Virus record (IMG/VR): IMGVR_UViG_3300025137_000017 | Location: 62,001 to 126,000 of that record | DNA: 64,000 nucleotides | Strand: one strand, 5' to 3' | Origin: a virus | Shown here: in pieces, positions 2-62,477 of the stretch | Layout: each line of letters opens with the position of its first letter | Numbering within the stretch: the first letter of the stretch is position 1 | The notes under the pieces: generated by a model | The model's database searches: none | The model's input: the letters and a program-made list of their open reading frames with translations, nothing else | What the model was told of the DNA's origin: nothing | Position numbers and translations under genes: made by a program

Positions 2-2683
2 GATGCTACTGCTTCAGGAACTATCACAGGTGGAACACTAACTGACGGAGCGGCAAGCTTCACAAGTGGTGCTCTAACAGGTGCAACCACTGGTGCATTT
101 AGTAGTAACGTAACAATCGGCGGAACAGCAGGTATTACAGGACTAACAACAATGTCAACAGCGGCAGTAACAAGTACAAGTACATTTACTGGTGCAATTA
201 CAGCCAATGGTGGATTAGTTGGAGACGTAACTGGTGATATTACTGGTACAGTTTCAGACATTAGTAATCATAACTTAAACGGACTAGGCGATGTAACAAT
301 TTCTAGTGCGGCAAACGGTCAAGTTCTACAATGGAACGGATCTGCTTGGGTTAATGCTACTAAGTTCTTTGCACTAACATCTTTAACAGATGTTGGCGAT
401 AGTTCACTAACAGGTAAAGGCGATTATCTACTACAAGTTAAAGCAGATGCAAGTGGATTTGAATTAGTTGATCCATCAACTGTATCATTTAGTTCGCAAA
501 ATCGTGTCACAATAAACGGTGATGGTGTTGCAACTACATTTAACTTAGGATTTACTCCAAACTCAGCAACAATGGTGTTTGTGGGCGGTGTTATCCAGGA
601 TCCAAGTACACACTATACTATCGATACAGATAATGATCAGATTACTTTAGGCTCAGTAATGCCAACAGGTACATCAGCGGTTATTATGAGTACTGAAAGT
701 AGTGCGGTACCATATGTTCCAACAAATGGTGTTGGTACAACTGAAATCCAGGACGATGCAATCACATCAGCAAAAATTGCCGATGGTAATGTTACTAGTG
801 CTAAATTGGATACCAACATTGCTATTGCAGGTAACTTAACTGTTGCCGGTGATGCAACAATTAGTGGTAACCTAACATTTGGTGATGCGGCAACTGACAC
901 AGTTAGTTTTGGAGCCGATATCGCAAGTGATATTCTTCCAAATGCAAACAACACACTTGATTTAGGTGCTAGTGGTATAGCGTTTGCTGAAGTACACGCT
1001 ACTAACTTTTACGGAATCCATAACGGTAACGTAACAGGTAATGTAACTGGTGATATTACAGGTGATGTAACTGGTAACGTAACTTCTGCAGGAACAAGTG
1101 ATTTCTCAGGAACTGTAGACTTTACAGGCGCAACTATTACTGGACTATCAACTACACTAACAGGTAACTTAACTGGTAACGTAACAGGTAATGTAACTGG
1201 TGATTTAACTGGTGATGTTACAGGTGATGTAACTGGTAACGTAACTGGTGATTTAACTGGTGCTTCAGCTGGTGCACATAACGGTACAATTGGTGCAACA
1301 ACTCCAACAACTATCGTTGGTACAACAATCGGTGGTACAGTTATTACAGCAAGTACAAACTTTGCAGGTGATATTACTGGTGATGTAACTGGTAACGTAA
1401 CTGGTAATGTAACTGGTAACGTAACAGGTAACTTAACTGGCGATGTAACTGGTGATGTAACTGGTGACTTGACAGGTAATAGTGCTGGTACACATACTGG
1501 TGCTTCTGTTGGTGCTCACACTGGTGCAGTAGACGGCATCTTGGGTGGTAACACTCCGGCGGCAGCTACAGTAACAACAATGACAGCAAGTAGTGACGTA
1601 ATTGTACAAGGTAACTTTACAGTTTCAGGAACTACAACCACAGTTAACTCAAATGATGTTAACATTGCAGACTCAACACTAACACTTAATAGTGATGAAG
1701 CTGGAACTCCTTCACAGGATGCGGGTATTGTTATTGAACGTGGTACAGCGGCAAATGTTAGTTTCTTATGGGACGAAACAGGTGACCAATGGACTACAGG
1801 TACAGAAGCAATTAAATCTGGACACCTATTACCAGCAGCAGATGATACTTATGACCTAGGTGCAGACGGAAACGTTTGGAGAGACTTATATCTAAGTGGA
1901 AGTACAATCAAACTTGGTGGTGCAACTCTTAGTGCTAGTGGATCTAACCTAAGTATGGGATCTGGATCCTTTGATCTAAGTAACAGTACAACTGCCAACT
2001 TAGCTGAACATACAGACTACAAGTATTATACTGATACAAGAGTTAGAACACACATCGAAGGTGCAGACCTGGCTATGGGTGCTAACAATATCACAACTAC
2101 TGGTAAGATGTTATACAGTAACGTTTATAGTGCAGAAGGCGATCTTCCAAGTGCAAGTACATATCACGGTATGTTTGCACACGTTCATGGAACAGGATTG
2201 GCTTACTATGCTCACGGTGGAAACTGGGTCAAACTAGCAAAGCATGATGATAGTATTAAGAGCAATGCTAATGATACTGCTTCTGGACAAATTACATTTA
2301 GTAACTCAACTAACTCAACATCCGCAACTACAGGTGCAGTAATTGTAACTGGTGGTGTTGGTGTAGGTGGTAACATTTATGCTAGTGGTGACGTAACTGC
2401 TTACTCAGATGAATCCCTAAAGACTAATATCCAAACTATTGATAATGGTCTAGATAAAGTGATGGCACTTCGTGGTATTACTTTCGATCGTATTGCAGAT
2501 GGATCTACATCAACTGGTGTATCCGCTCAAGACGTGAAGGCGGTTCTTCCGGAAGCTGTGGCAACTGATGACGAAGGTCTAATGGCTGTTAAATATGGTA
2601 ACCTAGTTGGTCTACTTATTGAAGCAATCAAAGATCTTAAGGAAGAAGTTAACGAGCTTAAGACATCTGGAACTGTACATTAA
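2..2683 (+). CDS. tail fibre protein with S74 chaperone domain (5' partial)
   Basis: Long fibre-like protein ending in an intramolecular chaperone (Peptidase_S74) that trimerises the fibre and is then normally released by self-cleavage. The reading frame is open from base 2 with no stop, so the start lies upstream of the window; the ATG at 152 is only internal. The body carries two arrays of short G-[DN]-[VLI]-T-G repeats (about 1021-1270 and 1366-1480), then a module with a GMFAHVH motif (about 2160-2240), then the S74 domain (from about 2400, AYSDESLK motif) with a C-terminal coiled coil. First of three related fibre genes in tandem. A strong terminator follows. The S74 assignment is confident; the receptor is unknown. 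Confidence 0.9.
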   Translation, partial: DATASGTITGGTLTDGAASFTSGALTGATTGAFSSNVTIGGTAGITGLTTMSTAAVTSTSTFTGAITANGGLVGDVTGDITGTVSDISNHNLNGLGDVTISSAANGQVLQWNGSAWVNATKFFALTSLTDVGDSSLTGKGDYLLQVKADASGFELVDPSTVSFSSQNRVTINGDGVATTFNLGFTPNSATMVFVGGVIQDPSTHYTIDTDNDQITLGSVMPTGTSAVIMSTESSAVPYVPTNGVGTTEIQDDAITSAKIADGNVTSAKLDTNIAIAGNLTVAGDATISGNLTFGDAATDTVSFGADIASDILPNANNTLDLGASGIAFAEVHATNFYGIHNGNVTGNVTGDITGDVTGNVTSAGTSDFSGTVDFTGATITGLSTTLTGNLTGNVTGNVTGDLTGDVTGDVTGNVTGDLTGASAGAHNGTIGATTPTTIVGTTIGGTVITASTNFAGDITGDVTGNVTGNVTGNVTGNLTGDVTGDVTGDLTGNSAGTHTGASVGAHTGAVDGILGGNTPAAATVTTMTASSDVIVQGNFTVSGTTTTVNSNDVNIADSTLTLNSDEAGTPSQDAGIVIERGTAANVSFLWDETGDQWTTGTEAIKSGHLLPAADDTYDLGADGNVWRDLYLSGSTIKLGGATLSASGSNLSMGSGSFDLSNSTTANLAEHTDYKYYTDTRVRTHIEGADLAMGANNITTTGKMLYSNVYSAEGDLPSASTYHGMFAHVHGTGLAYYAHGGNWVKLAKHDDSIKSNANDTASGQITFSNSTNSTSATTGAVIVTGGVGVGGNIYASGDVTAYSDESLKTNIQTIDNGLDKVMALRGITFDRIADGSTSTGVSAQDVKAVLPEAVATDDEGLMAVKYGNLVGLLIEAIKDLKEEVNELKTSGTVH

Positions 2684-2716
2684 TAGTAAAGTTTACAGAA
2701 TAAAAAACTAATACTG

Positions 2717-2747
2717 GAAACGGGCAGGAAACTGCCCGTTTTCTTTC
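2717..2747 (+). terminator. rho-independent terminator after first fibre gene
   Basis: Stem AACGGGCAG / CTGCCCGTT with a GAAA tetraloop, followed by TTCTTTC. It lies 34 bases after the stop of the first fibre gene and before the late promoter of the second, so it separates two transcription units. Confidence 0.88.
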
Positions 2748-2771
2748 GTCTAAATTAATCAAGTATTATTG

Positions 2772-2779
2772 CTAAATAC
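2772..2779 (+). promoter_or_regulatory. T4-type late promoter
   Basis: GCTAAATACATACATAC lies 32 bases before the ATG at 2811. It matches the TATAAATA-like late box repeated before virion genes in this window. Confidence 0.6.
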
Positions 2780-2810
2780 ATACATACAAGCAACAGGAGA
2801 CTGAGTCAAG

Positions 2811-4757
2811 ATGACCTTCAGACAAATTAACTTATCGGCAGTCGAAACGACAATAACAGCCCTTGCTGATCCTCTAATAGCTCTTAACTCCTCCGCATCT
2901 GGTTCTAATTCCAAAGATCTTGGGATATTAATGAACAGAGGCTCGGATACAAACGTTGCTTTACTATGGGACGAATCAACAGATCAATTTGCTTTTGTTA
3001 GTACAAGTGAAACAGGTACAACAGCAGGCGATGTAACTATCACAGCTTATTCTGATCTTAGACTTAATGATCTAACAGCAGATGATATAACTAGTGCTAC
3101 AATTTCAGCAACTTCAGGGTTTACAGGAAACTTAGTAGGTAATGTGGTTGGATCCACAACAGGAATTAACTATGGAAATGTAACGGTTGCAGTTGGTACA
3201 AGTACATTTAATAATATAACAATGGCTGGTAACTTAATTGTTAACGGAAGTACAACAACAGTTTCTTCAACAAATACTACACTTGCAGATAACCTAATAG
3301 AATTAAACTCAGGAGCAGGCGATAATGATGCTGATGCTGGTATTGTTATTGAACGTGGTTCAACAGGCGACAATGCATTTATGGGTTGGGACGAAAGTTC
3401 AGATTCGTTTATTTTGGGAACAACTACAGCCACTGGTTCAAGTATAGGCAACTTAACAATTACACCAACTGCACTTCATCTTGGTAGTTTAGATATAACA
3501 AATACAACCGCTGGTAGTGATGCAGGACCAGTAATTACATTACACAGAGATATAACTGGTGCAGACGCAAATTACATTGGACAAATAAAATTTACTGCGG
3601 ATAATGATGCTGACCAAAGCACAGTATTTGCAAAGATTACTGGTAAGATTGACGATGCTAGTGATGGCACTGAAGATGGTATTATTGAAATTGCACATAA
3701 GAAAGCAGGATCAAATAATATTAGTGCAAGGTTTACAAGCGACAAACTTAAATTAATTAATGGAACAGGATTAGAAGTTGATGGTGACCTTAATATGGGT
3801 GACAATAATTATCTTAAAATGGGTGATGGTGAGGATTTTCAAATACACCATGATGGTACAAACAGTATAATAAGAAGTACTAACCACCGAACTTGGATAC
3901 AAACAAATAGTATATTAGAAATTAGTAAATTTGGTGGTGCTGAATACATGGCAAGATTTATTGCCGATGGAGCAGTAGAACTTCGTCATAATAATACGGC
4001 AAGACTTACAACAACCTCAACTGGTGCAACTATTAATGGAAGTCTATTAACCACTAACATTTATGGTGCTAGTGATACTAATACTGGTATTCAGTTTGAA
4101 GGTTCAGATGTGATAACTTTACATACTGGTGGAGCTGAACATATTCGTATTGATAGTTTAGGTCGTGCTGGATTCGGTATTTCAAGTCCATTAGCCAGAA
4201 TCCATGCAAAACAACATAGTGTATCTTATGGTATTGTTGTAGAAGCTAATGGAAACGACTCTTGGTTACGATTACATCATAACGATTCTTTAGGTATAAT
4301 TGAAACAACTTATAATAGTTCAGCAGGCTTTTCTCCATTAACATTTAAAGTAAGTAATGCAGAACGTATGCGTATTGATACGTCAGGTCGTGTTGGTATT
4401 GGTACTAGCAGTCCATCAGAAGTTCTACATGTAGTAGGCAACATACTTGCAAGTGGTGATGTTACAGCCTATTCAGATGAAAGATTAAAAGATAACATAC
4501 AAACAATTGACGGTGCTTTGGGCAAAGTCAATAGTATGCGAGGAGTAACATACACAAAAGATGGCTTAGAAAGCTCGGGTGTTATTGCACAAGAAATTGA
4601 AAAGATTGCTCCAGAACTTGTTAAAGATGGTGAATATAAATCCGTTGCATATGGCAACCTAGTTGGATATTTAATTGAAGCAATCAAAGAGCAACAAAAA
4701 CAGATTGATCAATCCAAAACAGAGATTGAGAATCTTAAAAAAGAGATAAGGGGATAA
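2811..4757 (+). CDS. tail fibre protein with S74 chaperone domain
   Basis: 648-residue fibre protein. The N-terminal two thirds is beta-rich and low in charge, with modules shared with the flanking fibre genes (DAGIVIERG followed by a WDES segment). A central part with repeated histidine-rich beta-strand units resembles carbohydrate-contacting fibre tips. The C-terminal roughly 100 residues form the S74 chaperone (AYSDERLKDNIQ motif, then a coiled coil). The start is supported by an AGGAG upstream and by the late promoter. The next fibre gene starts 4 bases after the stop. Probably a receptor-binding or fibre-shaft subunit; which one cannot be told from sequence. Confidence 0.88.
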   Translation: MTFRQINLSAVETTITALADPLIALNSSASGSNSKDLGILMNRGSDTNVALLWDESTDQFAFVSTSETGTTAGDVTITAYSDLRLNDLTADDITSATISATSGFTGNLVGNVVGSTTGINYGNVTVAVGTSTFNNITMAGNLIVNGSTTTVSSTNTTLADNLIELNSGAGDNDADAGIVIERGSTGDNAFMGWDESSDSFILGTTTATGSSIGNLTITPTALHLGSLDITNTTAGSDAGPVITLHRDITGADANYIGQIKFTADNDADQSTVFAKITGKIDDASDGTEDGIIEIAHKKAGSNNISARFTSDKLKLINGTGLEVDGDLNMGDNNYLKMGDGEDFQIHHDGTNSIIRSTNHRTWIQTNSILEISKFGGAEYMARFIADGAVELRHNNTARLTTTSTGATINGSLLTTNIYGASDTNTGIQFEGSDVITLHTGGAEHIRIDSLGRAGFGISSPLARIHAKQHSVSYGIVVEANGNDSWLRLHHNDSLGIIETTYNSSAGFSPLTFKVSNAERMRIDTSGRVGIGTSSPSEVLHVVGNILASGDVTAYSDERLKDNIQTIDGALGKVNSMRGVTYTKDGLESSGVIAQEIEKIAPELVKDGEYKSVAYGNLVGYLIEAIKEQQKQIDQSKTEIENLKKEIRG

Positions 4758-4761
4758 TAAA

Positions 4762-6444
4762 ATGGCTTTTAAGTTAGGAAACCAAACAGTTTTAAATTTA
4801 GATGCGGCAGGTTCAACACAAGTTAGTAGTGCTTCTGGAAAAGATGTTGCATTGTATCCAGATCAGAATGTTTGGATAAAAGAAGGTACTAAATTAATTT
4901 TTGAAGGTACAACACCAGATGCTCATGAAGCTAAGTTACAGGCAACGACAGTAACAGCAGATAGAGATTTAATTTTACCAGATGAAAGTGGAACATTGGC
5001 TACCCAATCATATGTTAGCTCTGCAGTAGGTGGTTCAGGAGCGTTAGCAACAACCGGTGGTACAATGACTGGTGCTATAGAAATGGGCAGTAACAACATT
5101 ACTACTACTGGTAAAGTATTGTTTGCTAATATGTATGCAACTGAAGGTGATTTACCAAGTGCAACAACATATCACGGTATGTTCGCTCATGTACATGCCA
5201 CAGGCGCAGGTTACTTTGCACATGGTGGTGCTTGGAGAAAATTATTAGATGAAACATCATCAACAACTACAGATTTAACAGAAGGCACAAACTTATATTA
5301 TACAGATGTTAGAGCCGATGCAAGAGTAACAAACGCTCTTGGTGGAACAATTTCCTCTTTAACAACTAGCGGAAACGTGTTAGTTGGTGGAAACTTAACA
5401 GTCAATGGTACTACAAATACGGTTACCTCAAATGAAGTTAATATTGGTGATAATATTCTAAAACTTAATGCAGATGAAACTGGAGCACCTAGTCAAGATG
5501 CTGGATTAGAAATTGAACGTGGTACTAGCACAAATGTTACTTTCTTATGGGACGAAGCAAATGACAGATGGACAACAGGTGGTGAAACCATTAAAGCTGG
5601 ACACCTACTACCAGAGACAGATGTTACATATGATTTAGGTTCAAGTGCATTAAAATGGCGTGACTTATATCTGAGTGGTAGTACAATTAAATTGGGCGGA
5701 GCAACGCTTAGTGCTTCGGGTTCTAACCTAAGTATGGGATCCGGATCATTTGACTTATCCAATAGTACAACTGCTAATTTGCCGGAACATACTGATTACA
5801 AATATTATACAGATACAAGAGTGCGTACACATATGCAAGGTGCAGATTTAGATATGACTACAAATAAAATATTGTATTCAAATGTCTACGCCACAACTGG
5901 TGATTTACCAAGTGCGGCAAGTTACCATGGAATGTTTGCCCATGTACACGCAGAAGGTAAAGGTTATTTTGCACATGGTGGAGCATGGAAAGAATTAGTT
6001 GATACAACAACTAGTAGTACAATTAACTTACAGCTAAATAGTATTGGAGCAGGAACATCAGCCGGCGGTACAGCAGGTGATATTCGTGCAACAGCAGACA
6101 TTACAGCATATTACTCTTCAGATGCAACGCTAAAACAAAACGTTGTACAAATAGAAAATGCATTAGATAAAGTCAACAGAATTCGAGGTGTTGAATTTGA
6201 TTGGACACCTGAGTACTTGGGAGAAAAAGGCGGAGAAGATGGTTATTTTGTCCGCAAACACGATGTAGGTGTTATAGCACAAGAGGTAGAAGAAGTATTA
6301 CCTGAAGTAGTAGGCACCAGAGACAATGGGATAAAAGCAGTACGCTATGATAGGATTGTAGCCTTGCTAATTGAAGCCATAAAAGAACAACAAACACAGA
6401 TTGATGAGCTAAAAGAGTTAGTAAATCACAAAATGAATAAATAA
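4762..6444 (+). CDS. tail fibre protein with S74 chaperone domain
   Basis: 560-residue fibre protein, third of the tandem set. It holds two internal copies of a GMFAHVHA module (nt about 5140-5250 and 5900-5990), and between them a module that is nearly identical, at protein level, to one in the first fibre gene (SGSTIKLGGATLSASG and following). The C terminus is an S74 chaperone (SSDATLKQNV, VIAQEVEEVLPEVV) with a terminal coiled coil. Ribosome site AAGGGG precedes the ATG. The pattern suggests duplication and module exchange among the three fibre genes. Confidence 0.88.
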   Translation: MAFKLGNQTVLNLDAAGSTQVSSASGKDVALYPDQNVWIKEGTKLIFEGTTPDAHEAKLQATTVTADRDLILPDESGTLATQSYVSSAVGGSGALATTGGTMTGAIEMGSNNITTTGKVLFANMYATEGDLPSATTYHGMFAHVHATGAGYFAHGGAWRKLLDETSSTTTDLTEGTNLYYTDVRADARVTNALGGTISSLTTSGNVLVGGNLTVNGTTNTVTSNEVNIGDNILKLNADETGAPSQDAGLEIERGTSTNVTFLWDEANDRWTTGGETIKAGHLLPETDVTYDLGSSALKWRDLYLSGSTIKLGGATLSASGSNLSMGSGSFDLSNSTTANLPEHTDYKYYTDTRVRTHMQGADLDMTTNKILYSNVYATTGDLPSAASYHGMFAHVHAEGKGYFAHGGAWKELVDTTTSSTINLQLNSIGAGTSAGGTAGDIRATADITAYYSSDATLKQNVVQIENALDKVNRIRGVEFDWTPEYLGEKGGEDGYFVRKHDVGVIAQEVEEVLPEVVGTRDNGIKAVRYDRIVALLIEAIKEQQTQIDELKELVNHKMNK

Positions 6445-6473: not shown

Positions 6474-6701
6474 ATGGCATTACCAGCAACTGGTGCCACA
6501 ATTAGCATTGGCACAATTAGAACATACTTCAGTTTATCAGGACAAAAATCCCTGCTAAACTTGGGAAATCATATTTCACCATCTGTAACAACTAATATCA
6601 GACTATCAGCTACATTTGGCGGATGGCAGAATCCAAATCAATGGGGTACAGATTCAGGTGTTGCACCGGACCAAGATGAATACGGTTCATCTAACTACTA
6701 A
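6474..6701 (+). CDS. small tail-fibre-associated structural protein
   Basis: 75-residue protein starting MALPATGATISIGTIR. Small proteins with this MALP.SG..S..... opening occur next to fibre genes in marine T4-like phages and are usually taken as virion proteins; that link is recalled, not searched. An AGGAG lies 10 bases before the ATG. Low in charge, Gly/Ser/Thr-rich, no membrane segment. Last gene of the fibre cluster, followed by an inverted repeat. Confidence 0.65.
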   Translation: MALPATGATISIGTIRTYFSLSGQKSLLNLGNHISPSVTTNIRLSATFGGWQNPNQWGTDSGVAPDQDEYGSSNY

Positions 6702-6715
6702 GATTTATATTAATC

Positions 6716-6749
6716 AGAGTCTGTTGTTTTTTACTTGACAACAGACTCT
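6716..6749. repeat. perfect 12-bp inverted repeat overlapping an early promoter
   Basis: Arms AGAGTCTGTTGT and ACAACAGACTCT are perfectly complementary around a 10-base loop. The right arm overlaps the TTGACA -35 box at 6735-6740. No T-tract follows on either strand, so an operator or processed hairpin fits better than a simple terminator. Confidence 0.75.
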
Positions 6750-6762
6750 ATTAATGTATAAT
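6735..6762 (+). promoter_or_regulatory. sigma70-type early promoter
   Basis: TTGACA (6735-6740), 16-base spacer, TATAAT (6757-6762). It is 45 bases upstream of the ATG at 6808 and matches the host-type promoter class seen elsewhere in the window. Confidence 0.8.
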
Positions 6763-6807
6763 ATAAGAAGAGAAACCTCACAGTAAATTCACACAGGAGA
6801 AAAATAA

Positions 6808-7227
6808 ATGAGTATTCGCACACGTTTCGAAATAGAAACATTTGTATTGGGATCACACCCCACACTAGAAAGAAAAGCACACGCCATTAAAGTTGAGTAT
6901 GAGGCTGCCAAAGCATCTGGTCATCCAGACTTGCCGGTTTTAGAAGCAGTATATAACAACTTTGCATTAACAAATGATATTGATGCATTGATTGCCAACA
7001 TTGAAACCACAGAAGAGACATATTGGGTAGAACGTTTAGCACGTTTGGCCGCAATTGATATCTTAACTATCGGTAAAGTACAACCTGAGACCATGCACCA
7101 CATGGCATCACTAAATGATGATGCATTCGCGGCCAGTGTAAAGAGTGCAACTGTACTAGCTAAAACACTTAATGAATCAGTACGTGAAATTGAAATTGAA
7201 TTAGGTACTGACTTAGTCCAAGACTAA
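6808..7227 (+). CDS. conserved hypothetical protein
   Basis: 139-residue, mainly helical, acidic protein with no motif I recognise. A good AGGAG site precedes the ATG. It is the first gene behind an early-type promoter, and the following glycosyltransferase starts directly at its stop, suggesting co-translation. Contains paired tryptophan/arginine helices (YWVERLARLAA) in the middle. Function unknown. Confidence 0.7.
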   Translation: MSIRTRFEIETFVLGSHPTLERKAHAIKVEYEAAKASGHPDLPVLEAVYNNFALTNDIDALIANIETTEETYWVERLARLAAIDILTIGKVQPETMHHMASLNDDAFAASVKSATVLAKTLNESVREIEIELGTDLVQD

Positions 7228-7872
7228 ATGGTAAGTATACCTAAATTCCATTATTCAGTGGGTACAAACGCCAAGGTTGCAATTTGCGTGCCTGTGCGTG
7301 ATACGGTAACGGCAGTATTCACACAAAGTCTTGCCATGCTTACTAAAAAGTGTGGCGAGACTAAACAAAAGATATCACTACACATGGTAATGGGTAGTGA
7401 AGTTGCAATGCAACGACAACAACTAGTAGACGAAGCAATGGAAACTGATTGTACTCACATACTATGGTTAGATAGTGATATGTCATTTCCAACAAATACA
7501 TTACAGGCATTGTTATCACACGATAAAGATGTCATTGCATGTAATTATAGTACAAGAATAGCACCACATCGACCAGTGGCATTTAAAAGCGAAAATGATT
7601 TAGATGTAAGAGTTGAAAGTGGTATCGGAATACAAAAGATATTTGCAGTAGGTATGGGTTGTATGTTAGTAAAACGACAAGTATATGAAGTAGTGGTTAG
7701 ACCACATTTTAGTGTTACTTGGAATGATGATTATACTAACTTAGTCGGTGAAGATATATACCATTGTAATAAGGCAAAAGAAGCTGGGTTTGATATCTGG
7801 CTAGAGAATGATTTAAGCGAGAATATAGCCCATATTGGAACAAGGGCGTTTACTATTAAAGGTGATTGTTAA
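7228..7872 (+). CDS. GT2-like glycosyltransferase
   Basis: 214 residues with a GT-A Rossmann-like fold signature: VAICVPVRDTV at the N terminus (nucleotide-sugar entry), a run of helix, then LWLDSDM at residues 80-85, giving the DxD metal/nucleotide motif D82-S-D84. A second acidic segment (GEDIYHC) follows near residue 172. Shorter than most bacterial GT2 enzymes but usual for phage versions. It starts right after the previous stop and overlaps the next gene by one base (TAATG). Likely substrates are virion or host surface glycans, or modified DNA bases; the sequence does not decide. Confidence 0.75.
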   Translation: MVSIPKFHYSVGTNAKVAICVPVRDTVTAVFTQSLAMLTKKCGETKQKISLHMVMGSEVAMQRQQLVDEAMETDCTHILWLDSDMSFPTNTLQALLSHDKDVIACNYSTRIAPHRPVAFKSENDLDVRVESGIGIQKIFAVGMGCMLVKRQVYEVVVRPHFSVTWNDDYTNLVGEDIYHCNKAKEAGFDIWLENDLSENIAHIGTRAFTIKGDC

Positions 7873-22920: not shown

Positions 22921-23589
22921 ATGCACGGATTAAACTATTCATTGAATGGTGATATACGAAGATTGAACATTGATTCCAGTAGCAGATGTAATCTATCATG
23001 TCCAGGATGTGGCAGGACAAGAGACATTGCTAATGGAACTAATGGTTCAATTGAAGACATGCCAATGGAATACTTCAAAGCACTGGTACGTCCAGAAAAT
23101 AGAATTACCCAACTAACATATAATTTTGCACTAAGTGATCCTATCTACAGTGGTGTAGTTCTAGATCAACTAGCACATATAAACACATTAGACAATAGAC
23201 CTATTGTCAATTTTAGTACCAATGCGAGTGGTCGTAAACCCAAATGGTGGATTAAATTTGCAGGTCTATTGCGAGAACGAGATAAAGTAGAGTTTGCAAT
23301 TGACGGACTGGAAGATACTAATCACTTATACAGAGTTAATTCAAAATGGGATAGTATTATGTTGGGTGCTAAAACCCTAAGAAAACATTGGAATCCACCG
23401 CCTGGTGGGGGAATGATGTGGCGTTATGTTATATTTGAACATAACTATCATCAAGTAGCTGAAGCAAAAAAACTAGCAATTGAACTAGGCTTTAATAGAT
23501 TTAGGCCTGTTGTAGGGGATAAAAGAACACCCCAACATATGCGATTAAAAAGTAGAACTTGGGAAGAGATAGAACATGATCTATCCTAA
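22921..23589 (+). CDS. radical SAM protein
   Basis: 222 residues. The cluster motif CNLSCPGC (C-x3-C-x2-C) lies near residues 24-31 after IDSSSRCN, so it should bind a [4Fe-4S] cluster and cleave S-adenosylmethionine. Later strands (IVNFSTNASGR, VEFAIDGLEDTNHLYRVN) fit the TIM-barrel of peptide- or sugar-modifying members. It starts 2 bases after the previous stop. The downstream ORF, in the +1 frame with a 14-base overlap, carries a SPASM-like Cys set, so this may be the N-terminal half of one enzyme. Substrate unknown. Confidence 0.85.
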   Translation: MHGLNYSLNGDIRRLNIDSSSRCNLSCPGCGRTRDIANGTNGSIEDMPMEYFKALVRPENRITQLTYNFALSDPIYSGVVLDQLAHINTLDNRPIVNFSTNASGRKPKWWIKFAGLLRERDKVEFAIDGLEDTNHLYRVNSKWDSIMLGAKTLRKHWNPPPGGGMMWRYVIFEHNYHQVAEAKKLAIELGFNRFRPVVGDKRTPQHMRLKSRTWEEIEHDLS

Positions 23590-23896
23590 ATGCAAACATA
23601 AAGAAAAACAAGTACCTGCTGTTAGATATGATGGCTATGTGGTTCCTTGTTGTCACTTCGGAAACTGGAATGATATTGAAGTATTCAGAGAACGCATGGG
23701 AGATCTTGTGGAAACAATGCATATAACTAATGGTACTCTAGATGAAATTAATAATAGTCTAGCTTGGAAGTTTATTGAAGATAGTTTTGATAATGAACCA
23801 TTTGCTAGATGTGTTCAACATTGTAGTGATCCAGAAAACTACAAAAAAACTAAAAGTAATGTAGGAGCAGACTTTAAAGTAATAAGTTTAGAATAA
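23576..23896 (+). CDS. SPASM-like C-terminal partner of radical SAM
   Basis: 106 residues with MIYPKCKHKEKQVPA, then VVPCCHFGN and a late FARCVQHCSDPENYK. Cysteines spaced in this way are typical of SPASM/twitch auxiliary cluster domains, which in known enzymes follow the radical SAM barrel on the same chain. Here the frame differs from the barrel ORF by one base. Either a genuine split enzyme, a programmed frameshift near 23576-23590, or a sequencing indel. Overlaps the next gene by one base (TAATG). Confidence 0.68.
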   Translation: MIYPKCKHKEKQVPAVRYDGYVVPCCHFGNWNDIEVFRERMGDLVETMHITNGTLDEINNSLAWKFIEDSFDNEPFARCVQHCSDPENYKKTKSNVGADFKVISLE

Positions 23897-29000: not shown

Positions 29001-30110
29001 ATGGCTAGACCTTTTGACGTAAGTAAATTCCGCAAAAGTATCACCAAGGCAGTTCCAGGTTTGAGTGTTGGGTTTAACGATCCCGACACTTGGATCTCTA
29101 CAGGAAATTTTACCCTTAATAAATTAATTAGTGGAGACTTTGAAAAAGGTATTCCACTAGGTAAAGTTACTGTACTGGCTGGTGAATCAGGAGCAGGAAA
29201 AAGCTACATAGCCGCAGGCAATATTGTTAAAGCGGCACAAGAACAAGGCATATTTGTTATCTTAATTGATAGTGAGAATGCACTCGACGAAGCATGGTTA
29301 CATGCATTAGACGTCGACACAGGAGAAGATAAACTTCTCAAACTAAACATGAGTATGATTGATGATGTTGCTAAGACAGTATCAGACTTTATGAAGGACT
29401 ATAAGCTGGAATATGCAGATAAAGAAAGCGAAGAACGTCCTAAAGTATTGTTTGTAGTGGATTCCCTTGGTATGCTATTGACACCTACAGATGTTGATCA
29501 GTTCCAAAAGGGTGATATGAAAGGTGATATGGGTAGAAAACCTAAAGCACTAACATCATTAGTTCGTAACACAGTTAATATGTTTGGCGAATATAACGTT
29601 GGGCTATTAGCAACTAACCACACTTATGCATCACAGGACATGTTTGATCCAGATGATAAGATTAGTGGTGGACAAGGCTTTATCTATGCAAGTAGTATCG
29701 TTATTGCAATGCGAAAACTTAAATTAAAAGTAGACGCAGATGGTAATAAGACTACTACAGTAAATGGTATTAGAGCTGCATGTAAGGTAATGAAGACTCG
29801 TTATGCTAAACCTTTTGAAAGTGTACAAGTTGAAATACCTTATGAAACTGGTATGAGCCCATATAGTGGACTAACTGAATTCTTTGAAGCAAAAGATATT
29901 CTAAAGAAAAGTGGTAATAGTCTAGAATATATTAGTCCAGTTACTGGTGAAGTAGTTAAAATGTTCCGTAAACCTTGGAATGCAAACAAAGATGGTGCAT
30001 TAGATAAGGTTATGATGGAGTTTGGTTCATTACCAGAAGAAGTGCAGGATGCAAATCCTGATGAGGTTCCTGATATAATGGTTGAAGAGGTAGAAGTAGA
30101 TGAATCTTAA
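29001..30110 (+). CDS. uvsX: RecA-like recombinase UvsX
   Basis: 369 residues. Walker A GESGAGKS at residues 61-68, Walker B LFVVDSLGMLL, and a conserved ATNHTYASQDMFDP-x-KISGG loop that contacts DNA. It forms filaments on ssDNA for strand invasion and for recombination-primed replication with gp32, UvsY and UvsW, all close by. AGGAG site; its last 11 bases overlap the next gene. Confidence 0.95.
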   Translation: MARPFDVSKFRKSITKAVPGLSVGFNDPDTWISTGNFTLNKLISGDFEKGIPLGKVTVLAGESGAGKSYIAAGNIVKAAQEQGIFVILIDSENALDEAWLHALDVDTGEDKLLKLNMSMIDDVAKTVSDFMKDYKLEYADKESEERPKVLFVVDSLGMLLTPTDVDQFQKGDMKGDMGRKPKALTSLVRNTVNMFGEYNVGLLATNHTYASQDMFDPDDKISGGQGFIYASSIVIAMRKLKLKVDADGNKTTTVNGIRAACKVMKTRYAKPFESVQVEIPYETGMSPYSGLTEFFEAKDILKKSGNSLEYISPVTGEVVKMFRKPWNANKDGALDKVMMEFGSLPEEVQDANPDEVPDIMVEEVEVDES

Positions 30111-32852: not shown

Positions 32853-32880
32853 TTGACAAACAAACTAGATCGTGTATAAT
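32853..32880 (+). promoter_or_regulatory. sigma70-type early promoter, leaderless type
   Basis: TTGACA (32853-32858), 16-base spacer, TATAAT (32875-32880). The UvsW ATG follows at 32887, six bases after the -10, leaving no room for a ribosome site. Confidence 0.8.
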
Positions 32881-32886
32881 AGTATT

Positions 32887-34338
32887 ATGAGTTGTAAAAT
32901 AATCCTAAAAGATGAGGTAAATTGTAAGATCGAAGGCTTAGATCTCGATACTCGAAAGAAGATTGAGAAGAAGCTGAAGTTCTTTATGCCCTATGCATAC
33001 CATGTACCAGCATATAAGTTGGGCAGATGGGATGGTTGTATTAGTTTCTTTACTATTGGTGGAGTAACATACAGTAATCTGTTGGATGATATACTTCCAA
33101 TTATCATTGCAGATGGTTATGAAGTAAATGTAGAAGATCACAGATCACAAATAAAGTTAGAGTTTGATATTGTTGATGAGACTACATTCCAACATAAGAG
33201 CTGGCCTGAAGGTCATGTCATGGAAGGGCAACCAGTAACACTTCGTGATTATCAGATTGAGATTGTAAACAAGTTCTTAGAAACTCCACAATGTCTACAG
33301 GAGATTGCCACAGGAGCAGGTAAAACACTTATCACAGCCGCTCTTAGTTCAAAGGTAGAAGAGTATGGGCGTTCAATTGTTATTGTGCCTAACAAAGACC
33401 TAGTAACACAGACGTATGCAGACTATAAAAACTTAGGTTTAGATGTTGGAGTATACTATGGTGATAAGAAAGAATATGGTAAAACACATACTATCTGTAC
33501 ATGGCAGAGTTTAAATAGTATTAAGAAGCAATTTCGTGATGCAAAGACAGACTTTAGTCTACAGGACTTTAGTGAAGATGTAACATGTGTTATAGTAGAT
33601 GAGGTTCATCAGGCTAAAGCAGAAGTACTTAAAGAGCTACTAACAAAAGATTTTGCACATATTCCTATGAGATGGGGATTAACTGGTACTATTCCAAAAG
33701 CAGATCATGAAAAGATTGCACTAAAAGCCTGTCTAGGTGAGGTAGTTAATAAACTTGCTACTGAAACACTACAAGAAGCTGGCGTACTTAGTAACTGTCA
33801 TGTGAACGTAATGCAGTTAGAAGAAACTGTTGAATACAATAACTATCAAAGCGAACTAACATATTTAACCAGCGATAAAAAACGTATGGAATATATAAGT
33901 AAGTTGCTGGAATCTATAGGAGAGAGTGGTAACACACTTATATTAGTTGATAGAATTAAAGCAGGTAACCTAATAGTGGATAATATCCCAGGTGCTAGTT
34001 TTGTTAGTGGTAGTATGAAAAGTGCTACTCGTAAAGAACATTATGATGAAATTAATACTGAGGATAAACAAATCCTCGTAGCAACGTATGGTGTGGCGGC
34101 CGTAGGTATTAATATCCCTAGAATCTTTAACTTAGTTCTAATTGAACCGGGTAAAAGTTTTGTAAGAGTTATACAGAGTATTGGACGTGGCGTTCGTAGA
34201 GCCAACGACAAAGACTTTGTACAGATATGGGATATAACAAGCACGGCTAAGTTCTCAAAAAGACATTTGAGAGAAAGAAAGAACTTCTATAAAGAAGCCA
34301 ACTACCCATTTACAATAGAAAAAGTTAGATACAAATGA
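32887..34338 (+). CDS. uvsW: RNA/DNA helicase UvsW
   Basis: 483 residues from the ATG at 32887; the longer GTG frame from 32872 would start inside the promoter. SF2 helicase: N-terminal DNA-contact domain (YKLGRWDGCISFFTIGG), Walker A ATGAGKT near residue 142, DEVH box, LTGTIPK (motif III) and the QSIGRGVRRAN motif VI. UvsW unwinds branched DNA and R-loops and shifts replication to the recombination mode. Next gene overlaps by 4 bases. Confidence 0.93.
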   Translation: MSCKIILKDEVNCKIEGLDLDTRKKIEKKLKFFMPYAYHVPAYKLGRWDGCISFFTIGGVTYSNLLDDILPIIIADGYEVNVEDHRSQIKLEFDIVDETTFQHKSWPEGHVMEGQPVTLRDYQIEIVNKFLETPQCLQEIATGAGKTLITAALSSKVEEYGRSIVIVPNKDLVTQTYADYKNLGLDVGVYYGDKKEYGKTHTICTWQSLNSIKKQFRDAKTDFSLQDFSEDVTCVIVDEVHQAKAEVLKELLTKDFAHIPMRWGLTGTIPKADHEKIALKACLGEVVNKLATETLQEAGVLSNCHVNVMQLEETVEYNNYQSELTYLTSDKKRMEYISKLLESIGESGNTLILVDRIKAGNLIVDNIPGASFVSGSMKSATRKEHYDEINTEDKQILVATYGVAAVGINIPRIFNLVLIEPGKSFVRVIQSIGRGVRRANDKDFVQIWDITSTAKFSKRHLRERKNFYKEANYPFTIEKVRYK

Positions 34339-34835
34339 AAATATTAACAGTAGAAAATAAAATATATGATTTAGATGAGATACCGGATCAAGTAGATGAT
34401 CTACGTTATGGAATCTTAGATTACAGTGATCCAAAGAATGTGGACTATTATTTTGTCCCACTAGTATTCCTGGAAAGTTTTTATAGTCCAGCCGCAGTAG
34501 TGCAAATTGGAGACAAACAAATTAGTGTTCCATTAGATTGGAGTGTAGTTATCTGTGATCGTGAAGTTGGAGAGCCTGAAGTATTAAATCTAATGAGTCT
34601 AAACGACAGAGGATTTAGTGCTTTTGCATTTAATCCAGTCAATGGATTTAAAGCAGAATATCTTGATATTCAAATAACAAATGTATATACAGATATTAAA
34701 TGGTATGCTCCTAAACTTAAATTTGGACACCTATTATGTGTTCCAGTATCAGACGAACCCAATCCACTATGTTGTCTGTTTGTAAAAGAATCAAGTAAGA
34801 TTCCTGAAGTACTTGATATTAATGTGATGTGGTAA
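34335..34835 (+). CDS. conserved hypothetical protein downstream of uvsW
   Basis: 166 residues, beta-rich, hydrophobic core with WYAPKLKFGHLLCVPV near the end and DLDEIPDQVDDLRYGILDYS, in parts, at the start. Similar proteins sit after uvsW in cyanophage-type genomes as I recall. No signal peptide or catalytic motif. ATGA overlap with uvsW and TAATG overlap with the SufE-like gene mean all three are likely read together. Confidence 0.65.
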   Translation: MKILTVENKIYDLDEIPDQVDDLRYGILDYSDPKNVDYYFVPLVFLESFYSPAAVVQIGDKQISVPLDWSVVICDREVGEPEVLNLMSLNDRGFSAFAFNPVNGFKAEYLDIQITNVYTDIKWYAPKLKFGHLLCVPVSDEPNPLCCLFVKESSKIPEVLDINVMW

Positions 34836-35230
34836 TGAGTAAAATTACAGAATATGCTGAGGAATTTAGTTTCTTAGATGATGAAGACAGATTAATGCAT
34901 CTTATTGATTTGGCAAAGCGACCAGGTAGCTTACCAAAAGAACTAAGATCAGACAACAACCTTGTAAATGGTTGTATGAGTCAAATTTGGGTAGATGTAG
35001 GTTTACAAGATCAAATTGTTAGTGTATACTATGATAGTGATGCAATGATTACAAAAGGTATTACCAGTGTTGTAGCAGATTGTTTTACAGGACTAGATCT
35101 TGCAGACGCAAAGTTACTTACAAAGTCTGACTTTGAAGAATTAGGCATAAAAGAATTGCTATCTGCACAAAGACGTAATGGCTTAGGTAGTCTAATAGAT
35201 ACTATAAGCAAAAGGGTACATAAGTTATGA
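34835..35230 (+). CDS. SufE-like sulphur acceptor protein
   Basis: 131 residues from the ATG at 34835. NLVNGCMSQIWV with Cys47 matches the SufE active-site loop (V-x-GC-x-S-x-[VA]-W; Cys51 in E. coli), MITKGITSVV matches the G-[LIV]-x-x-[IV] helix, and SAQRRNGLGSLI matches the conserved S-x-x-R-x-NG-x near the end. SufE takes sulphur from SufS cysteine desulphurase for iron-sulphur cluster assembly. Complete length (E. coli SufE has 138). Inside a replication operon, with overlaps on both sides. No SufS partner in the window. Confidence 0.85.
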   Translation: MSKITEYAEEFSFLDDEDRLMHLIDLAKRPGSLPKELRSDNNLVNGCMSQIWVDVGLQDQIVSVYYDSDAMITKGITSVVADCFTGLDLADAKLLTKSDFEELGIKELLSAQRRNGLGSLIDTISKRVHKL

Positions 35231-35691
35231 ACGCAAAATTAACAATTAAAGAAGAGATGCGTTCTATTGATGTTAAGGATAGAACTTGGTATAAAAGTCT
35301 AACTGACGAAGAGAAGAAGAAGGTTGGTATATGGGTATTGATGCGATATGCAAGTAGTGTTAAACACGGCATTAAAGACTTCGAGGAACATTATCTTGAA
35401 TGGACTAATGAGCTTGTTAATGTACACTTCAATACACTAAGACATCATCCAGAGCTACAATACCAGTTACTACAAGCAGTAGGGTTAGGTAAGATACAGT
35501 ATCATCCATGGATTGCTCCAGGCAAAAAAGGTACTGATAAGCCGTTGTTTAAGTTTTTTAAAGACAAACACCCTGAATATAATGATGATGAACTTGCCAT
35601 ATTCCTATTACAATATGACAAAGATGAGATCACAGATATACTAGAGCAGTATGGATTAGAGAAAAAAGATATTAAAAAGTTATTAAAGTAA
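35227..35691 (+). CDS. gp62: clamp loader small subunit gp62-like
   Basis: 154 residues, helical. TWYKSLTDEEKKKVGIWVLMRYASSVKHG (in parts), then WIAPGKKGTDKPLF and a C-terminal helix pair follow the pattern of cyanophage gp62, which with gp44 loads the gp45 sliding clamp. Shorter than T4 gp62 (187). gp44 is not in this window. ATGA overlap with the SufE-like gene. Confidence 0.75.
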   Translation: MNAKLTIKEEMRSIDVKDRTWYKSLTDEEKKKVGIWVLMRYASSVKHGIKDFEEHYLEWTNELVNVHFNTLRHHPELQYQLLQAVGLGKIQYHPWIAPGKKGTDKPLFKFFKDKHPEYNDDELAIFLLQYDKDEITDILEQYGLEKKDIKKLLK

Positions 35692-38910: not shown

Positions 38911-39927
38911 ATGAGCTTAATAACAAACTACGTTAAATCTATTCTCCCTGTCGGCTGGACTAGTTCCCCATCAGGCTGGACTCATGGAAATTGTCCCATG
39001 TGTGTGGTTAATGGTGAATCAAGGCCTGATATAAAAGGTAGAGGTGGATTTCGCTTTGAGGACGACAAGTTTAGTTATAACTGTTTTAACTGTGGTTATA
39101 AGACTGGCTGGAGTCCTGGCAAAGGTATCAGTAATAAAGTTAAAAGACTACTATTACGGTTTGGTGCTGATGAGAGTGATGTACAGAGACTACAACTAGA
39201 GTTATTAAGAGAAGAAGATGTTGCTACTATCCTACTGAGGAAAGAAGCAAGGAATACTCCTATTGTAATTGATTGGGAAGAAATGGCATTGCCTGAAGGT
39301 GCCCAACCAATTAATAATTACAAAGGTGAAGTACATTTAGACTTTATAAAAGCAGTAGAGTATATACATAGTCGTGGATTTAATATTGATGATGATAGAT
39401 TTATGTATAGTCCGGCTTCGGCTCCGGGTAGAATGAAGAGTCGCTTTATAATTCCGTTTCATTATAAAGGTAAGGTTGTAGGTTATACTGCACGTTGGAT
39501 TGGCAAGCCACCTGAAGGAATGCCTAAGTATTATAATCAGCAACCTAAGAATAACTTTATATACGGATTAGATAGACAAACAAAAGATAAAAACATTGTC
39601 ATTGTTACTGAAGGTCCATTAGATGCTATTGTAACTGATGGTATTGCTATTGGAAGCAATAGTATAAATGATGATCAGGCCAATATTATTGACAACTTAC
39701 AGAAGCGTGTTATACTATTGGCAGATAAAGATTTTGCAGGAATTAAGGCAGTTAACACGGCAATCGAAAGAGGTTGGAGTGTTAGTTTTCCTGAATGGAC
39801 TGATTGTAAGGACGCCGGAGATGCTCTGGAACGATATGGTAGATTGTTCACAGTTCGTAGTATCCTAGACGGTGCTATAAGCAATCCAACTAAGATAAAA
39901 CTACTGGCACAGAAATATTGTAAGTGA
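38911..39927 (+). CDS. gp61: DNA primase gp61
   Basis: 338 residues. Zinc ribbon formed by Cys28, Cys31, Cys58 and Cys61 (CPMC, CFNC) reads the priming site; a TOPRIM core follows with VTEGPLDAIVTDG and LLADKDFAG holding the metal acids. Makes the RNA primers on the lagging strand with gp41. Length equals T4 gp61 (342). The helicase gene follows after 7 bases. Confidence 0.93.
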   Translation: MSLITNYVKSILPVGWTSSPSGWTHGNCPMCVVNGESRPDIKGRGGFRFEDDKFSYNCFNCGYKTGWSPGKGISNKVKRLLLRFGADESDVQRLQLELLREEDVATILLRKEARNTPIVIDWEEMALPEGAQPINNYKGEVHLDFIKAVEYIHSRGFNIDDDRFMYSPASAPGRMKSRFIIPFHYKGKVVGYTARWIGKPPEGMPKYYNQQPKNNFIYGLDRQTKDKNIVIVTEGPLDAIVTDGIAIGSNSINDDQANIIDNLQKRVILLADKDFAGIKAVNTAIERGWSVSFPEWTDCKDAGDALERYGRLFTVRSILDGAISNPTKIKLLAQKYCK

Positions 39928-39934
39928 GGGAAAT

Positions 39935-41338
39935 ATGAACACAGAACACAAAGACTATGGATTAGAGGTACAGAAACTATTTGTAGAATTCCTAGCACAG
40001 GATCAAGACTTATTTGTCCGTGTTAATAACATTATGAGTCCAGAGTATTTTGATAGAACACTTAGAAAGAGTGTTGAGTTTATACAAGAACATGCTAATG
40101 AATATGGTGCTTTGCCTAAACGTGAACAAATAATTGCAACAACAGGATTAGAACTTGCAGGTATCCCTGATGTAGATGATAGACATAAAGAATGGTTTGC
40201 AGATGAGTTTGAAAACTTCTGTAAACAAAAAGCTCTTGAAGGTGCTATCCTAAAGAGTACTGACTTATTGGAAAAGGGTGAGTTTGGTGCTGTCGAGAAA
40301 CTTGTTAAAGATGCAGTACAGGTTGGACTTGCTAAACACATGGGTACTAATTATTGGGAATCGCCTAGTGAACGTATTGAAAGAGTACGACAAGCACGTG
40401 GTGGCACAAGCACAGGCTGGAAAGCAATAGATCATAAACTATATGGTGGCTTTAACAGAGGTGAACTAAACATATTTGCGGCGGCTAGTGGTGGAGGTAA
40501 AAGTTTATTCCTACAAAATTTAGCATTGAACTGGGCATTAGAAGGACATAATGTTATCTATATTAGTTTAGAGCTTAGTGAAGAACTATGTAGTATGCGT
40601 CTTGATAGTATGATTACTGGTATGAATACAAAAGAAGTGTTCCGTAATGTTAGTGATGTAGATTTAAAAGTTCGTATGGCAGGTAAGAAAGCTGGAGTAC
40701 TACAAATTGTACAGTTACCCAGTGGTATTACTGTTAATGATCTAAACAGTTATATGAAAGAGTTTGAGGTTAAGAACAACATTAGGATTGATGCAATGTT
40801 AGTTGACTATTTGGATCTAATGATGCCAGCACAACGTAAGGTTCCGCCTAGCGACTTGTTTATTAAGGACAAGTTTGTAAGTGAGGAATTGCGTAACTTT
40901 GCTGTCGAGCATCAGCTACTGTTCGGAACTGCCTCACAGTTGAATCGTAGTGCAGTTGAAGAAGTAGAGTTTGATCATTCGCATATTAGTGGTGGTTTAA
41001 GTAAAATCCAGACAGCAGACAATGTTATTGGTATCTTTACTAGTAATGCAATGAGAGAACGTGGTAGATATCAAGTACAGTTTATGAAGACTCGTAGTAG
41101 TGCTGGTGTGGGACAAAAGGTTGATCTAAACTTTGATGTAGAGGGTTTAAGGATTACAGACTTAGATGATGATGAGGCTGATGCAAATCCGGTGAACAAT
41201 ACAAGTGCAATACACGATAAACTTAAAAGACAATCCCAACTAAAAGGACATGATAACAATTTGTCGGAAAATATGGCAGTTGAAAAAGCAGTAGGCAATG
41301 TGGATAGGATGAGAAGTATCCTTAAAAAGCAAGACTAA
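39935..41338 (+). CDS. gp41: replicative helicase gp41 (DnaB-type)
   Basis: 467 residues. Walker A AAASGGGKS ends at residue 190; then IYISLELSEELCSMRL, MLVDYLDLM (Walker B) and SQLNRSAVEE as sensor, all DnaB-family marks. Forms the hexamer that unwinds DNA ahead of the polymerase and activates gp61. T4 gp41 has 475 residues. The C-terminal 60 residues are charged and probably bind partners. GAGGG ribosome site. Confidence 0.94.
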   Translation: MNTEHKDYGLEVQKLFVEFLAQDQDLFVRVNNIMSPEYFDRTLRKSVEFIQEHANEYGALPKREQIIATTGLELAGIPDVDDRHKEWFADEFENFCKQKALEGAILKSTDLLEKGEFGAVEKLVKDAVQVGLAKHMGTNYWESPSERIERVRQARGGTSTGWKAIDHKLYGGFNRGELNIFAAASGGGKSLFLQNLALNWALEGHNVIYISLELSEELCSMRLDSMITGMNTKEVFRNVSDVDLKVRMAGKKAGVLQIVQLPSGITVNDLNSYMKEFEVKNNIRIDAMLVDYLDLMMPAQRKVPPSDLFIKDKFVSEELRNFAVEHQLLFGTASQLNRSAVEEVEFDHSHISGGLSKIQTADNVIGIFTSNAMRERGRYQVQFMKTRSSAGVGQKVDLNFDVEGLRITDLDDDEADANPVNNTSAIHDKLKRQSQLKGHDNNLSENMAVEKAVGNVDRMRSILKKQD

Positions 41339-61759: not shown

Positions 61760-62477
61760 GAATCTAAGACCATGTAATGTTCTAGTATTACATCAACCCG
61801 GTGCTGGTGGGCAGTTCTTTTGTAACATGGTGGGTAATATAATGTTACCTCCACATATTAATTGCACTCCTCCTCTTAGAGCTGATAACGATAGTTCGAA
61901 TGAATATCACAGTGATCTAGCACCACTAATAACGGCTACACACTTTCAGACTTTATTCAGACGAAATACTTCACCCAGCATGAGAGATTCACAAATTACT
62001 ATACAACAGTATAGATATATATTGAATTGGTATAAGAACACAAAGATTATTAATTTAGTAACGGGTAAAAACTATCAGGATTATGTAAAGATATTAGGAC
62101 AAATAAAGCTACTACAACGAGAAGACTGCACACTTGGTTTATATGAAGAAGCCATACAGGATATTATAACGTGGAAAGCCCACGACAATACTGATAAACG
62201 TTGTGAACATTCAGATATAGACTATTGGAATTCACATACAGATACATTTATTAAGAATCATGTTGCTAGAGGTGGACAGAGTTTAACTATTAAATACGAA
62301 GACTTCTTTATTAACTTTAATTCAGATGTATTTTCTGAAGCAGTCCACTTCTGTGTGGGTGGGGATATACTTAGTACTACTGAAGATGATTTAATTGATA
62401 GGCATGAACGCAGTATTAGAAAATATCGTATGAAAAATTATCGTTCTATTGAATCATTTTCAATTAGGTGGTCATAA
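61731..62477 (+). CDS. hypothetical protein, possible sulfotransferase-like fold
   Basis: 248 residues. Opening NVLVLHQPGAGGQFFCNMVGN has a P-loop-like glycine turn, and TIKYEDFFINF resembles the YED segment of sulfotransferases. Both are short hints; the family is not established. The ATG at 61734 is an alternative start. Its 3' end overlaps the convergent oxygenase gene by 40 bases. Confidence 0.5.
   Translation: MMKDLNFIYKNLRPCNVLVLHQPGAGGQFFCNMVGNIMLPPHINCTPPLRADNDSSNEYHSDLAPLITATHFQTLFRRNTSPSMRDSQITIQQYRYILNWYKNTKIINLVTGKNYQDYVKILGQIKLLQREDCTLGLYEEAIQDIITWKAHDNTDKRCEHSDIDYWNSHTDTFIKNHVARGGQSLTIKYEDFFINFNSDVFSEAVHFCVGGDILSTTEDDLIDRHERSIRKYRMKNYRSIESFSIRWS

Follow-up and report, generated by a model that had tools for sequence, protein, structure and literature searches.

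Phages encode a SufE family of their own, with an intact predicted active site and a gene context that indicates its purpose. The member described here comes from an uncultured marine phage and is encoded in a window of 64,000 nucleotides, the whole stretch of DNA analysed (positions 62,001 to 126,000 of the IMG/VR virus record IMGVR_UViG_3300025137_000017; Table 1), where sufE is an exchangeable single-gene cassette within the replication region. Phage SufE probably takes sulphur from the host desulphurase and boosts the Fe-S output available to phage radical SAM/SPASM enzymes, an explanation that we prefer with some reservation.

Table 1. The sufE gene, its surroundings and the candidate Fe-S client genes, in window coordinates
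Feature	Position	Strand	Evidence
Radical SAM core protein, candidate Fe-S client	22921..23589	+	phrog_21308 'radical SAM domain-containing', 1.4e-14
SPASM domain, separate overlapping ORF, probable partner of 22921-23589	23576..23896	+	Pfam SPASM 5.8e-5, above cut-off
UvsX	29001-30110		Profile match
UvsW-like DNA helicase, replication/recombination context	32872..34338	+	Pfam ResIII/Helicase_C, phrog_16
Upstream flank, phrog_11279 family, no assigned function	34335..34835	+	PHROG 1.4e-51
SufE, 131 aa (start ATG 34835, stop TGA 35230), Cys47 equivalent to E. coli Cys51	34835..35230	+	PF02657, PDB sequences, AlphaFold/Foldseek, Cys in 52/52 phage copies
Exchangeable cassette interval	34836..35235	+	blastn against L159, L162 gene layout
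Downstream flank, phrog_11758 family, no assigned function	35227..35691	+	PHROG 5.3e-25
Primase	38911-39927		Profile match
DnaB-like helicase	39935-41338		Profile match

The original prediction was of a SufE-like sulphur carrier, and the motifs that it named (GCMSQIW with Cys47, GITSV and QRRNGLGSL) are all found in the translation. The Pfam SufE profile PF02657 matches the protein with E=1.5e-27 (96.2 bits, curated cut-off 27) and pairs residues 9-126 with profile positions 2-120 of 121, covering the whole domain, a similarity that exceeds chance by far. Sequence matches in the PDB are SufE and CsdE proteins of E. coli, Salmonella and others, the best at 1.3e-10 and the rest weaker. The scores against the SufE equivalog NF006792 (61.8 bits) and the CsdE equivalog TIGR03391 (56.6 bits) lie below the respective cut-offs of 160 and 136.4; SufE models outscore CsdE models slightly, and judged by its sequence the phage protein is a SufE/CsdE family member assignable to neither equivalog. 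An AlphaFold model built from 27 phage sequences (alignment A1) has a mean pLDDT of 93.7 and a pTM of 0.88. Its top Foldseek matches among solved structures are SufE of E. coli and Salmonella at TM 0.82-0.88 (0.86 to 1mzg, 0.88 to 3g0m), with CsdE matched too, so that the predicted fold agrees with SufE. IscU and SufU score far lower (TM 0.35-0.58), and an identity as an IscU/SufU scaffold was discarded. Neither an Rfam element nor a promoter excess was found around sufE.

Loss of Cys47 in close relatives, or a fold unlike SufE/IscU, had been named as grounds for abandoning the prediction, and neither was seen: the model resembles SufE, as described, and Cys47, Asp69 and Arg113, which correspond to Cys51, Asp74 and Arg119 of the E. 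coli protein, are invariant in 52 of 52 phage copies. Together with the Pfam match and the predicted fold, the retained cysteine bears out the SufE identity. Cys51 and Asp74 of E. coli SufE each play a defined part when the protein accepts sulphur from SufS, Asp74 holding the Cys loop, and the SufS-contacting peptides are 38-56 and 66-83 (PMC6006206). Most invariant columns of the phage alignment fall in P34-W52 and Y65-G75, the segments corresponding to these two peptides. Most phage sufE pairs with unsaturated dS give a dN/dS of ~0.12-0.28, and the gene is under purifying selection. The phage clade is without some residues common in bacterial SufE; given these absences and the divergence of the clade, partner specificity could have shifted.

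IMG/VR holds 61 loci related to the phage sufE, whose clade has no counterpart in PHROGs, in BFVD or among the phage records of GenBank. PHROGs gave no match for the protein, and the viral structures of BFVD none for its model at E<=0.001. The GenBank phage collection gave five SufE matches only, all below 36% identity; at least two of them, in freshwater and Salmonella records, look bacterial, with EvgS, protease II and csdE genes, and none of the five is close to the phage family. A phylogeny of phage versus bacterial SufE, the comparison suggested at the outset, was built from 58 phage and 88 cellular or cellular-like SufE/CsdE sequences (the E. coli CsdE row is a provisional sequence and bears on no conclusion). 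All 58 phage sequences fall on one side of a single branch with 100% SH-aLRT, a separate clade. At 3.1 changes per column its stem is very long, and the clade is therefore presumably old or fast-evolving. A scan of genome contigs with phage-only motifs found no relative, and one with mixed motifs found alphaproteobacterial SufE of up to 42% identity; because the mixed motifs favour that class, a host origin there is at most a candidate.

The sufE gene overlaps both neighbours, as originally described, by 1 nt upstream (TAATG) and 4 nt downstream (ATGA). The accompanying description of these neighbours as replication genes has to be given up, both belonging to families of no assigned function. 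The upstream flank has no PDB relative and the downstream flank neither a Pfam nor a PDB relative; a gp62 clamp-loader label for the latter found no support in Pfam, PHROG or PDB and was dropped. The recognised replication and recombination genes (UvsX, UvsW-like, primase and DnaB-like) sit farther from sufE. Locus L159 is 94% identical to the window in both flanks, but homology in blastn ends at 34836 and restarts at 35236, and in place of sufE there is a QueC-like gene followed or preceded by no more than an ORF of 69 aa; the QueC-like PP-loop protein is encoded at 5703-6431 of that locus (Pfam QueC 5e-6). The sufE interval is absent from L162, and both L158 and L161 have a 71-aa ORF ahead of sufE. 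The dS of the L158 sufE is 0.87 against 0.20-0.50 for its neighbours, as expected if sufE alleles were exchanged separately from the genes around them. In other T4-like relatives the place of sufE varies: it is flanked by an AAA gene and uvsW, adjoins uvsX, or lies close to the polymerase-like gene of phrog_11778. With its slot empty or otherwise filled in close relatives, sufE is not the integral part of a replication operon that it had been taken for; it behaves as an auxiliary metabolic gene, present or absent at one site among relatives and with cellular homologues of up to 42% identity.

The genes that accompany sufE in other phages are those of Fe-S and SAM metabolism. In nine loci a gene for MetK (SAM synthetase) lies directly downstream of sufE and one for a QueE-like radical SAM protein (phrog_2076, 7e-50) close upstream; in three loci the gene for FdxA, a proteobacterial-type ferredoxin, lies upstream with a 4-nt overlap with the sufE start, and L014 has a SufT-like gene near sufE. 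We compared 39 SufE-positive records (3.1 Mb) with 33 SufE-negative records (1.6 Mb) chosen by NrdB or phrog_11279 homology. Counted on these fragmentary records, with a non-random SufE-negative set and leaving relatedness aside, the former carry 235 radical-SAM genes (7.6 per 100 kb, up to 21 per record) and the latter 31 (1.9 per 100 kb), a density about four times that of the sampled SufE-negative relatives. The excess persists within length classes and has a Mann-Whitney p of 4e-6 minus ten near-copies, a value uncorrected for relatedness. MetK is found in 16/39 SufE-positive and 1/33 SufE-negative records, FdxA in 14/39 and 1/33, and SufT in 9/39 and 0/33. A-type carriers are not enriched (7/39 versus 7/33) and were rejected as a correlate of sufE.

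The 137.8-kb contig G009, which also carries a phage clamp loader, encodes an IscS above the curated cut-off, an Nfu domain protein, an A-type carrier, SufT, FdxA, SufE and MetK alongside 21 radical-SAM genes. Its stretch 90000-108000 (locus L255) has IscS, Nfu-like, A-type carrier, SufT and FdxA in a cluster, most of an Fe-S assembly line. Records G009, G004, G021, G022, G037 and G038 (e.g. loci L257 and L260) have 15-21 radical-SAM genes each, often in tandem at about one per 1-1.5 kb, of SPASM/Twitch types and with no assigned function.

The examined phage is more modestly equipped. Its 135.6 kb record carries genes for a T4-type Gp23 capsid protein, terminase, UvsX, NrdAB and glutaredoxin, as well as four tRNA genes, and its radical-SAM content is one split radical SAM/SPASM gene pair only. 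The core protein has a CxxxCxxC motif and matches Pfam Radical_SAM at 8e-4, under the curated cut-off. The separation of core and SPASM suggests a recurrent split and not a sequencing error. Core and SPASM are two overlapping ORFs also in L009 (1510-2489) and L260 (84-1131 and 1112-2049), and are fused in L014. MetK, SufS or another cysteine desulphurase, A-type carrier, SufT and FdxA gave no match in the 135.6 kb record, and the phage must therefore rely on the SufS and SufBCD of its host. Outside the window, the record (G000) further encodes a ferredoxin-NADP reductase-like flavoprotein (128186-128953), a fatty acid desaturase (2455-3102) and, judged by eye, a candidate for a ThyX-like, flavin-dependent thymidylate synthase (6650-7318).

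Cellular SufE receives a persulphide on its cysteine from SufS, which makes desulphuration faster, and passes the sulphur to SufB. Cys47 of the phage protein would accept persulphide from a host group II cysteine desulphurase of the SufS/CsdA type, speeding up that enzyme, and phage SufE would hand the sulphur to SufB of the host SufBCD scaffold. The extra Fe-S clusters made during infection would go to phage-encoded Fe-S enzymes, chiefly those of the radical SAM/SPASM kind, and in related phages would serve whole radical-SAM arrays, which consume SAM as well. Fe-S supply for a radical SAM protein of the phage was among the purposes first suggested, and we favour it, given the split pair at 22921-23896 and the SufE-positive relatives rich in radical SAM, MetK, FdxA and SufT; for the examined phage we infer the sulphur transfer, the host partner and the client protein alike. 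The link to a client is weakest in the examined genome itself, because it has one radical-SAM pair and no SufS, A-type carrier, SufT, FdxA or MetK match. Counting against the explanation, the desulphurase that one SufE-positive phage, G009, encodes is an IscS-type enzyme and not of the kind with which SufE is classically paired. A wider and more tentative reading, which we think possible but put below even chances, makes SufE the recurrent point at which sulphur enters a supply line for Fe-S and SAM, run by the virus to mature radical-SAM arrays, some marine phages carrying most of the parts of Fe-S biogenesis; its parts would be SufE, MetK, FdxA and SufT, joined in one phage by IscS, Nfu and an A-type carrier.

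Phage SufE might instead sustain the Fe-S clusters of the host at large, for respiration and stress repair, with no specific phage client. The examined phage itself encodes few Fe-S proteins, and the di-iron RNR, glutaredoxin, flavin reductase and desaturase genes in its genome suggest a general redox investment; such broad support nevertheless gives no reason to expect so many radical-SAM, MetK and QueE-like genes near or with sufE, and we think it unlikely, though the most serious of the rivals. The sulphur could also have another destination. CsdE, a paralogue of SufE, has other acceptors, and a CsdE-like phage SufE could feed tRNA modification or the deazaguanine pathway, which is in keeping with the four tRNA genes of the phage, the QueC-like gene in the L159 slot and the QueE-like genes that flank sufE in nine loci. 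No phage-encoded tRNA thiolase was seen among the genes considered, however, and SufE models score slightly above CsdE models; neither QueC nor QueE is known to take sulphur from SufE, and QueE, a 4Fe-4S radical-SAM enzyme, itself points back to Fe-S. This makes a different acceptor improbable.

The high divergence of the clade and its long stem would suit a decoy or inhibitor that binds host SufS and redirects or blocks host Fe-S assembly, but a pure decoy needs neither an active cysteine with invariant surroundings nor purifying selection, and we give this reading very little weight. Least credible is a functionless host gene in passing, caught in the assembly or newly transferred. Although sufE is an accessory cassette, 61 related viral loci, a phage-only clade, low dN/dS, several genomic positions and the Gp23 gene on the record all speak against it, and because sufE is conserved this reading is in essence refuted. 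Supply of Fe-S clusters to phage radical SAM/SPASM enzymes remains the explanation that we prefer. In an ocean poor in iron, Fe-S supply would be a bottleneck, and viruses would ease it to keep radical-SAM enzymes running. The analysis turns the vague annotation of a 'virome sufE' into a testable claim, and draws attention to phage radical-SAM genes that stand in tandem, as many as 21 to an array, with products that have no assignment.

Several precedents exist for parts of this picture, namely viral Fe-S genes with radical SAM (PMC5332604) and sufE in viromes (PMC8940887); what is new is that the SufE clade is confined to phages, that its exchange slot is defined exactly and that it is tightly linked to MetK, QueE-like, FdxA and radical-SAM genes. 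With bacterial SufE/CsdE (PF02657), the sulphur acceptors of SufS/CsdA, phage SufE shares fold (TM 0.82-0.88), length, the cysteine of the GCxS loop, the DSDA motif and the arginine at the C-terminal RxxGL motif. It differs in being 25-42% identical to them and forming a separate, phage-only clade, in its signatures YYDSDAMI(T/P)KG and RRNGL, in a shorter beta-hairpin loop and in the lack of an adjoining sufS gene. The marine T4-like phages of Nishimura et al. 2017 (PMC5332604), with A-type carrier, IscU, PaaD and up to 12 radical-SAM genes, are alike in combining Fe-S assembly factors with radical SAM under a similar proposed logic; SufE is absent from the genes described there, and in our records the radical-SAM load tracks SufE, not A-type carriers. 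Pelagimyophages exchange radical-SAM gene cassettes among related phages (PMC7029224), a likeness in cassette exchange, and the main text of that report does not mention SufE. A further precedent comes from the ETNP oxygen-minimum-zone viromes, where sufE was reported in 2021 as an auxiliary metabolic gene, also without sufS and proposed to aid host SufS (PMC8940887); whereas those are annotated virome genes, the present work defines the clade, the residues, the insertion slot and the partner genes.
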